Positions 45,898-48,414 of a stretch of 64,000 nt of DNA are shown here, piece after piece. This DNA comes from Candidatus Schekmanbacteria bacterium (GTDB lineage Bacteria > Schekmanbacteria > GWA2-38-11 > J061), in NCBI GenBank assembly GCA_016219965.1, contig JACRJM010000003.1, positions 124,001-188,000 on the forward strand. The letters are read 5' to 3'. Made by a program: the position numbers and the translations under genes. A model generated the notes under the pieces. That model ran no database searches and was not told the origin of the DNA. It was given only the letters and a program-made list of their open reading frames with translations. The stretch's first letter is position 1, and each line of letters starts with the position of its first letter.

Positions 45898-46569
45898 ATG
45901 GTAAGGGAAATTGAGCTTTTAAAGAATGTTCCTATTTTCTCTGGTATTTCAGACAAAGAAATAGGCTTGGTTACAAGTATCCTCCGTAAGAGGTCTTTTC
46001 CGAAGAGCAGTGTCGTTATTCATAAAGGTGATGAAGGAGAAGCTCTCTATATTATTCTTTCCGGTAAAGTAAAGGTCACCTTAATAAGTGATGCAGGAAA
46101 GGAGATAATACTCGCAATATTAAGAGAAGGAAATTTCTTCGGAGAGATGTCTCTTCTAAACAACGAGCCAACGTCCGCAAATGTAGTAACTGCAGAGGAT
46201 TCTGTTTTTTTAACTATCTACAGGGATGACTTCAACTACATTTTGAGAAAGGACCCGGGGATAGCCCTTAATCTTCTTAAGCATATGTCCCTGAGACTGA
46301 AGATTGCCGACAAGAAGATAGGAAGTCTTGCCCTGCTTGATGTTTGCGGCAGAATAGCAAACCTTTTCATCGATATGGCAAAAGAAGAAAAACATGAGAT
46401 ATATATAGTTGAAAAGATTACTCACGCAGAGATTGCCCACATGATAGGCTCCACAAGAGAAGTGGTAAGCCGTGCCATAAAATGCCTTAAGGATAGCGGT
46501 TATATCAAAGTGCTAAGAGACAAAATTATCTTAGATAAGGATCTGAAGCTCAAGATAGATGATTTTTAA
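45898..46569 (+). CDS. Crp/Fnr family transcriptional regulator
   Basis: 223 residues. Cyclic-nucleotide-binding-type jelly roll (GDEGEALYIILSGKVKVTL, FGEMSLLNNEPTSANVVTAEDS) then a dimerisation helix and a winged helix-turn-helix (ITHAEIAHMIGSTREVVSRAIKCLKDSGYI). Cysteines for an Fnr-type Fe-S cluster are absent, so it is more likely nucleotide- or ligand-sensing. Short ribosome site AAAAGG. Confidence 0.92.
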   Translation: MVREIELLKNVPIFSGISDKEIGLVTSILRKRSFPKSSVVIHKGDEGEALYIILSGKVKVTLISDAGKEIILAILREGNFFGEMSLLNNEPTSANVVTAEDSVFLTIYRDDFNYILRKDPGIALNLLKHMSLRLKIADKKIGSLALLDVCGRIANLFIDMAKEEKHEIYIVEKITHAEIAHMIGSTREVVSRAIKCLKDSGYIKVLRDKIILDKDLKLKIDDF

Positions 46570-46633: not shown

Positions 46634-46639
46634 TATAAT
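46634..46639 (+). promoter_or_regulatory. Candidate -10 box for the riboswitch transcript
   Basis: A perfect TATAAT at 46634-46639 would start RNA near 46646, a dozen bases before the riboswitch. No good -35 at 17 bp was seen. Confidence 0.35.
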
Positions 46640-46657
46640 TAATATATGCCAATATTG

Positions 46658-46747
46658 GGTTTTCGAAAAAGGCAAACTCCGTGTAAGCGGAAGACGCAAA
46701 GCCAACGGATCCTAAAAAGTTAGGATGGCCGGGTCGCCGAAGAAACC
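46658..46747 (+). ncRNA. GEMM-type riboswitch (c-di-GMP-I class)
   Basis: Recognised from the conserved core: AGGCAAACTCC, a hairpin, GACGCAAAGCC, then the second domain CGGATCCTAA ... TTAGGATGGCCGGGTCGCCG. P1 can be drawn from GGTTTTCG (46658-46665) and CGAAGAAACC (46738-46747) with one bulge. The position equivalent to G20 of the known c-di-GMP aptamer appears to be G, which favours c-di-GMP over the cGAMP variant (A20), although the alignment is by eye. It sits in the 5' leader of the secreted DUF5666 gene and is followed by a terminator. Confidence 0.85.
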
Positions 46748-46760
46748 GGGAGAATATGAT

Positions 46761-46802
46761 AACCTGTTTCTTCATAAACCGAGAAATGGGTTATATTTTT
46801 TT
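46761..46802 (+). terminator. Riboswitch-controlled intrinsic terminator
   Basis: AACCTGTTTCTT (46761-46772) pairs with GAGAAATGGGTT (46781-46792) through wobbles, and a run of T follows (46796-46802). The 5' arm GTTTCTTC (46766-46773) is also exactly complementary to GAAGAAAC (46739-46746), the 3' strand of riboswitch P1, giving mutually exclusive structures. Confidence 0.75.
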
Positions 46803-46887
46803 GATAAGGAGGTGATTAAGTTCAAAAGAAAATTTAGTATTAACAAAAAAATTTAATAAATTTTTTTATAATTTGGAGGAAAAATAT

Positions 46888-48414
46888 ATGAAGCAAAGAA
46901 TTACAATAATGGCAATAATAGCGGTTTTTGTAATGGCTTTTTGCCTTGGAGAGATTATCAATGCCAAACAGCCGGGAGGACAACCTTCAATAAAGTCCGT
47001 AAAAGTTACGCCTGTAAAAGTTAAAGTTAAAACAGATAAAACTAAGAAATTTAAAGCTGTAGTAAAAGCAAAAGGAGGTGCGGATAAAAGTGTCAGTTGG
47101 TATGTCAATGACGTACTCGGCGGAGATAGTTCCGTAGGAACTATAACACAAAGCAATCCGGCTGTTTACACTGCTCCGGCAGCACCCCCAAATCCAGCGA
47201 CAGTAACTATTAAGGCTGTTAGCACTTCAGACACTTTAAAATATGCGACATCAAAGGTTAAAATAGAACTTTCAACTAAGAAGAAGGCAAAAATAAAAGG
47301 AGTCGCAGCAACGGGTGCTCCTATAGCCAACGGAACAGTTGTAATAACTGATGCGACAGGAAAGGAAGTAGGAACAGATGAGACATCTGCCGATGGTTCC
47401 TATTCCGTAAACTATCAAAAAAAATACCAGCTTCCATTTCTTATTAAAGTTACCAGTGAAGATGGTACTGTTACCCTTTACAGTGTAACCAATGATCCAA
47501 CACAACCTGCAAACATAACACCTTTTACGGACAAGGCTGTTGAAACACTGGTTGTACAAAATGGAGGAGATGTCAGCGACGGCGAAGTTGAAGACGATAT
47601 TGAAGAACTAGCGGGCCAGACTGCAGACATGGACAGCGCCATATCCAAAGCGCTTGAAACAATCAAAAATGCGTTGGGGCTTTCAACTGTAGATATCAAT
47701 TTTGTAACTTCCAAACTTGATACTGAAGATCCCGATGATTTTTATGATGATCTGCTTGATGCTGTTGAATCCTCGATTGAAGACGCAGGAAAAGATGACA
47801 TTGACGATCTGATCGAAGTAGATGACGATTATATCAAAGTCGATAAGACAATAACTTTAAAATATGGCGAATACGGGGTTAAAACAGATGATGGTGAAGA
47901 ACTCGAGGACGAATCTCCGGAAGACCTATCTGAAGATGAGCAACCTGAGATAGAGGGAACTATCAGCGCTGTTGATCCAATCAGCATGACCATAACAGTA
48001 AACAGCAATACAATAGGGGTTACAGACACAACCGTGATAAAAATGGAAGATATTGACGGCAATGATACGGTTGTAACTTTTAGCGCATTGGCAGAAGGCC
48101 AATTTGTAAAGATTGAGGCAAAATTTGAAGGAGATTTATTGGTTGCAGCAAAGATCAAGATAAAAAATGAATCAGAAGATGATGATGAGGATGAATTCGA
48201 GGCGGCAATAACACAGAAGAACGATGAAGCTTCGACCATTGTTGTCGACAATGCCCTGATATATGTGACTGTTGACACAGTGATAGATATCAATGATACC
48301 AGCGGGGCTTTTTCTGACCTCGCTGTGGGACAGGAGGTTGAAGTTAAAACCCAGCTTGTAGATTTTAAACTTGTCGCTGTTAAAATAGAAGTAAAAGATG
48401 AAGACAGCAACTAA
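46888..48414 (+). CDS. Secreted acidic protein with Ig-like and DUF5666 repeats
   Basis: About 508 residues from ATG 46888; the TTG at 46873 overlaps its ribosome site GGAGGA. A signal peptide (KQRITIMAIIAVFVMAFCLGEIINA) leads to a Big2-like Ig domain (about 25-110), a carboxypeptidase-regulatory-like domain (about 125-180, AADGSYSV type), a very acidic segment and two DUF5666-type beta repeats (about 345-500; VTVDTVIDINDTS). Likely a cell-surface or extracellular matrix protein. The riboswitch in its leader ties expression to c-di-GMP. A good terminator follows. Confidence 0.85.
   Translation: MKQRITIMAIIAVFVMAFCLGEIINAKQPGGQPSIKSVKVTPVKVKVKTDKTKKFKAVVKAKGGADKSVSWYVNDVLGGDSSVGTITQSNPAVYTAPAAPPNPATVTIKAVSTSDTLKYATSKVKIELSTKKKAKIKGVAATGAPIANGTVVITDATGKEVGTDETSADGSYSVNYQKKYQLPFLIKVTSEDGTVTLYSVTNDPTQPANITPFTDKAVETLVVQNGGDVSDGEVEDDIEELAGQTADMDSAISKALETIKNALGLSTVDINFVTSKLDTEDPDDFYDDLLDAVESSIEDAGKDDIDDLIEVDDDYIKVDKTITLKYGEYGVKTDDGEELEDESPEDLSEDEQPEIEGTISAVDPISMTITVNSNTIGVTDTTVIKMEDIDGNDTVVTFSALAEGQFVKIEAKFEGDLLVAAKIKIKNESEDDDEDEFEAAITQKNDEASTIVVDNALIYVTVDTVIDINDTSGAFSDLAVGQEVEVKTQLVDFKLVAVKIEVKDEDSN

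Follow-up and report, generated by a model that had tools for sequence, protein, structure and literature searches.

The DUF5666 locus and its leader

The window, a 64,000-nt stretch (positions 124001-188000 of contig 3) from a 3.58 Mb genome assembled in 18 contigs, comes from Schekmanbacteria, a phylum of which we know no cultured member. On its plus strand, the gene at 46888-48414, with GGAGG before the start codon, encodes a protein of 508 amino acids with a hydrophobic N-terminal signal peptide and two DUF5666 domains (PF18914; 54.1 bits against a gathering threshold of 27, E 1.9e-14). The sequence-only reading had described an acidic, Ig-like, secreted DUF5666 protein; the two domains, the signal peptide and the acidity (pI 4.2 for the mature protein after the signal) stand, whereas the Ig-type matches are weak and fall below the cutoff (Big_6, 19.3 bits against 27.6). 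The signal peptide and the domain make-up suggest a surface or matrix protein, and the predicted structure, computed from a two-sequence alignment, has a mean pLDDT of 33. Of four papers found to mention DUF5666, none concerns riboswitches by title or abstract. An Ig-like domain with the signature WYVNDVLGG...VGTIT is common to several of the switch-controlled proteins discussed below and to other large secreted Schekmanbacteria proteins, among them the product of 46888-48414, that of L014 (7168-10377) and that of L011 (4484-5770).

The proposal of a GEMM-type aptamer upstream of this gene is borne out by a cmscan search of the whole window, in which the sole match is RF01051 (c-di-GMP-I, GEMM-I; clan CL00126) at 46661-46741 of the plus strand (64.6 bits, gathering threshold 35, E 2.4e-10), with the full model length (1-87) covered. 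The 5' strand of P1, UUUUCG (46660-46665), pairs with 46738-46743 (6 pairs, one of them U-G), and the Rfam alignment places P2 with its GNRA loop GUAA at 46677-46692 and P3 with its closing strand at 46700-46736. GNRA tetraloops on P2 are also found in five other leaders of the same layout and in L008 (see below). P3 does not contain the tetraloop receptor insertions of the RF01051 consensus, these positions being deleted in the alignment, and the model cutoff is reached regardless. Such insertions are likewise missing from P3 of RF03167 (c-di-GMP-I-GGC); the window aptamer scores 56.8 bits with that model, under its gathering threshold of 59 and lower than with RF01051, and five relatives pass it with 60.2-63.7 bits. 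In the Vc2 register, which we anchored on the conserved motifs GGCAAA and GACGCAAAG, the ligand-contact positions G14 (46665), G20 (46671), A47 (46698), C92 (46737) and C93 (46738) all carry the expected bases (the roles of these residues by Vc2 numbering are taken from PMC9049102), and G14 is located six bases 5' of G20, the same spacing as in Vc2. Judged from these features, the window RNA is by class a genuine c-di-GMP-I switch, with c-di-GMP as the predicted ligand.

Immediately upstream, TATAAT at 46634-46639 (plus strand) is a possible -10 box. The promoter scan found no -35 box at 16-18 nt from it and no plus-strand sigma-70 match, and a promoter at this place is therefore unproven. A Shine-Dalgarno-like sequence, AAGGAGGTGAT (46806-46816, plus strand), is a perfect anti-16S match just 3' of the terminator described below. 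No ATG, GTG or TTG is located at normal spacing from it, and it may mark a leader ORF that has been lost or is non-canonical, or serve as a standby site for ribosomes.

Competing helices and the predicted OFF logic

Between the aptamer and the gene, an intrinsic terminator hairpin at 46759-46794 (plus strand; 14 pairs, -13.7 kcal/mol) is followed by a single A and then by a U-tract, U7, at 46796-46802. A terminator scan independently recovered the hairpin with its T-tract (14 pairs, including 3 G-C, and a loop of 8 nt), yielding 2 such sites in the region against 0.2 expected. Weak Rfam matches to the Avalong thermometer and to MIR9563 over the terminator were dismissed, given scores far under the respective cutoffs.

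The switching strand GAAGAAAC (46739-46746, plus strand) is both the P1 3' strand and the antiterminator 5' strand; the antiterminator 3' strand, GUUUCUUC (46766-46773, plus strand), lies inside the terminator 5' arm. The complementarity noted from sequence alone is exact, with 8 Watson-Crick pairs between 46739-46746 and GTTTCTTC at 46766-46773; what does not hold is the assignment of the entire strand to P1, because the continuous P1 comprises the 6 pairs of 46660-46665 with 46738-46743, so that 46744-46746 lie outside it and would not stack on it without a bulge. Among 1000 dinucleotide shuffles of the terminator arm plus loop, a single one gave an equally good duplex; composition shuffling of the 15-nt arm produced the 8-mer itself in 215 of 200,000 cases. 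P1 and the antiterminator are rivals for one strand, and the terminator and the antiterminator for the other. P1 shares no position with the terminator, and the ligand should therefore favour termination and act as an OFF signal.

Fold energies were calculated for transcripts of increasing length, with the start assumed at 46646, no ligand and the helices enforced; these are nearest-neighbour secondary-structure energies, with tertiary contacts and the ligand outside the model. Up to 46771, the form with the P1-closed aptamer trails the best apo fold by no more than about 1-3 kcal/mol; from 46773 to 46781, the antiterminator is best, some 7 kcal/mol ahead of the aptamer form; and at about 46793-46795, the aptamer-plus-terminator form catches or overtakes the antiterminator. 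The OFF logic put forward in the sequence-only reading is reproduced by this calculation, with the P1 3' strand paired either in P1 or with the terminator arm but never with both. The energies imply that the ligand must bind before the terminator arm is made and that the antiterminator needs to last only until the polymerase clears the U-tract. Because the full transcript at equilibrium always adopts the terminator, switching must be under kinetic control, like that of the Cd1 riboswitch of Clostridioides difficile. The window terminator is weak and A/U-rich (-13.7 kcal/mol against -17.6 to -21.0 kcal/mol in relatives), so that switching may be leaky.

We propose the following sequence of events. 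With c-di-GMP bound, the aptamer would keep P1 (46660-46665/46738-46743), the arm 46759-46772 would then pair with 46781-46794, and the polymerase would stop at the U-tract before reaching the gene. Without the ligand, 46739-46746 would take 46766-46773 once the arm emerges, the terminator would be delayed, and the secreted DUF5666 protein would be transcribed. High c-di-GMP most likely stops transcription of this secreted surface-type protein, and we consider it highly probable that the element is a c-di-GMP-sensing class I riboswitch operating as a transcriptional OFF switch.

GEMM-I leaders in Schekmanbacteria and the choice between readings

Among four Schekmanbacteria genomes (G000, that of the window, to G003), three contain GEMM-I aptamers, with 8 copies altogether, and G002 shows no match; each of the three carries one copy ahead of the same DUF5666 protein, the orthologues in G003 (56% identity to the window protein) and G001 (48%) both being located behind the same switch. 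A c-di-GMP-II search gave no match in the phylum, and control searches were equally silent. Six leaders (the window, L002, L003, L005, L006 and L007), which are related sequences so that counts over them are not independent trials, share one platform, in which the terminator is located 16-31 nt past the aptamer and offers, in its 5' arm, a possible pairing partner for the 3' strand of P1. With the transcript halted in the terminator loop, the apo probability of the antiterminator is at least 0.7 in five of the six (1.00 in the window and L002, 0.92 in L005, 0.79 in L007, 0.70 in L003) and weak in L006 (0.18); for the full-length transcript, the terminator probability is 1.00 in all six. Hardly any shuffle matches the duplex of the window, of L002 or of L005; the pairing is less distinctive in L007, L003 and L006, for each of which over 5% of the shuffled sequences do equally well. 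In L005, both strands are unlike those of the window (AAAGAG/CUCUUU), with the pairing retained.

The genes controlled by these switches in the phylum are, by their predicted products, all of surface or secreted types. Besides the DUF5666 proteins, they include type IV pilin-like genes (L002/L013), a CBM_4_9 protein with two WYVNDVLGG-type domains (L006/L011), a multihaem cytochrome (L008/L012) and a 1070-residue protein with ASH repeats, CxxCH motifs and a C-terminal WYVNDVLGG-type domain (L003/L014), for which the link between switch and gene is weaker because the start codon is 480 nt downstream. The top-scoring GEMM-I aptamer of the phylum (73.2 bits), L004/L015 on the minus strand of a short contig (G001:C116, 1488-1578), differs in its platform, which has nested hairpins and a CUCCUU that might mask AAGGAGG in front of a very short ORF; the contig shows no clear target gene.

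One further copy, L008 (G003:C144, 1501-1640), is located directly 5' of the multihaem cytochrome gene, whose product has a doubled CXXCH motif, and is the only one of the 8 GEMM-I copies with A20, the mark of GEMM-Ib. Here the P1 5' strand has two alternative partners, the P1 3' strand (CUCCG/CGGAG) and the Shine-Dalgarno sequence (UCCUCC/GGAGGA), and in the absence of ligand the latter pairing is favoured by 6.4 kcal/mol. This suggests that L008 is an ON-type translational switch; its ligand is possibly cGAMP. A GGDEF protein encoded in G002 (L058; G002:C1:10388-10858) combines an intact GGDEF motif with GHLVGS, in which Ser replaces the selectivity Asp, a signature of the Hypr cGAMP cyclases.

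One competing account, that the hairpin merely terminates the upstream Crp/Fnr-family gene and that its complementarity to P1 is due to chance, draws on the position of this gene, which lies on the aptamer's strand with its end at 46569, and on the promoter scan, which found no good promoter between the two. We regard it as very improbable, given that in both G000 and G003, where the Crp/Fnr neighbour is conserved, the aptamer sits between crp and the terminator, that in G001 the order aptamer-terminator-DUF5666 gene is kept behind a different gene (hydroxylamine reductase-type, named by sequence only), and that the complementarity of P1 and the arm is seen again in other leaders. As the upstream genes differ, the switch appears to travel with the DUF5666 gene rather than with crp. 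Just as improbable, in our estimate, is an ON switch in which the ligand blocks termination, as in Geobacter pilM or in Bc2 of Bacillus thuringiensis: although GEMM-I ON switches that use terminators are known (PMC9262584, PMC4933901), the pilM terminator claims the 3' strand of P1, so that it and the aptamer are mutually exclusive, whereas the window terminator at 46759-46794 lies outside P1 and can coexist with it.

The remaining alternative leaves the OFF platform unchanged and concerns the ligand, namely that the aptamer senses 3',3'-cGAMP as a GEMM-Ib RNA. The key base had been read as G, and it is: position 20 (46671) is G in the window, as in all six leaders of the same layout, and not the A20 of GEMM-Ib. 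The 13 GGDEF matches of the window's genome include 8 with a complete motif, all of which have Asp at the guanine-selecting position, where the Hypr cGAMP cyclases have Ser (PMC6456294). Together, G20 and the Asp in all 8 canonical domains favour c-di-GMP as the ligand. The same genome encodes 3 PilZ domains and 11 HD_5 (HD-GYP-like) domains, the latter being the likely phosphodiesterases; no EAL domain was found in it. Position 20 alone is not decisive, because its change in Cd1 had little effect on binding (PMC9262584), and Bc2, with A at this position, still responds to c-di-GMP (PMC4933901). This base tunes selectivity without deciding binding outright (PMC9262584), and the phylum contains both an A20 aptamer ahead of a multihaem cytochrome and a Hypr-like GGDEF protein; all of this leaves some room for cGAMP. 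However, the Hypr-like enzyme belongs to G002, the genome without a GEMM-I match, and we consider cGAMP sensing by the window aptamer improbable, if slightly less so than the two preceding accounts. With c-di-GMP retained as the probable ligand of the G20 aptamers, one may speculate, with considerable reservation, that one scaffold works in two directions within a surface programme of this phylum: G20 copies (c-di-GMP) would turn off transcription of Ig/DUF5666 proteins, pilins and haem-binding surface proteins, and the A20 copy (possibly cGAMP) would turn on translation of the multihaem cytochrome. If true, this scheme would extend cGAMP-type signalling beyond the groups in which it has been demonstrated.

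Comparison with known c-di-GMP and cGAMP riboswitches

The closest parallel is Cd1, which precedes the flgB flagellar operon of C. difficile and has been shown experimentally to be a transcriptional OFF switch, with an antiterminator that is only transiently stable and, given extended time, rearranges into the terminator (PMC9262584). Both elements combine a GEMM-I aptamer with an antiterminator formed by the P1 3' strand and the terminator 5' arm, and in both the terminator and the aptamer can coexist; in the window, the antiterminator strands are those expected from Cd1 and the terminator is independent of the aptamer. The differences are that Cd1 has little or no P1, whereas P1 of the window has 6 pairs; that the Cd1 antiterminator includes the ligand-binding C87, whereas the one in the window stops at 46739, just outside C92/C93; and that the target of Cd1 is flagella rather than a secreted DUF5666 protein. 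With respect to the target, c-di-GMP-I OFF switches of C. difficile precede PPEP-1, a secreted protease, and CD2797, a calcium-binding adhesion protein (PMC11477304); these are class I transcriptional OFF switches before a secreted or surface protein, as proposed here for the window, although the target proteins are unrelated and the phylum is different. The GEMM-Ib cGAMP switches of Geobacter pilM and pgcA (PMC9262584, PMC6456294) share the aptamer fold, and their target classes overlap with those found here (type IV pilins, multihaem cytochromes, surface proteins), but they combine A at position 20 with ON logic, in contrast to G20 and the predicted OFF logic of the window.

The locus offers a clean candidate target of c-di-GMP in Schekmanbacteria and, across three genera, would link DUF5666, a family of unknown function, to regulation by c-di-GMP. 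The mechanism has an established precedent in C. difficile; the novelty lies in the phylum, in the DUF5666 target and in the conservation of this target across the three genera.
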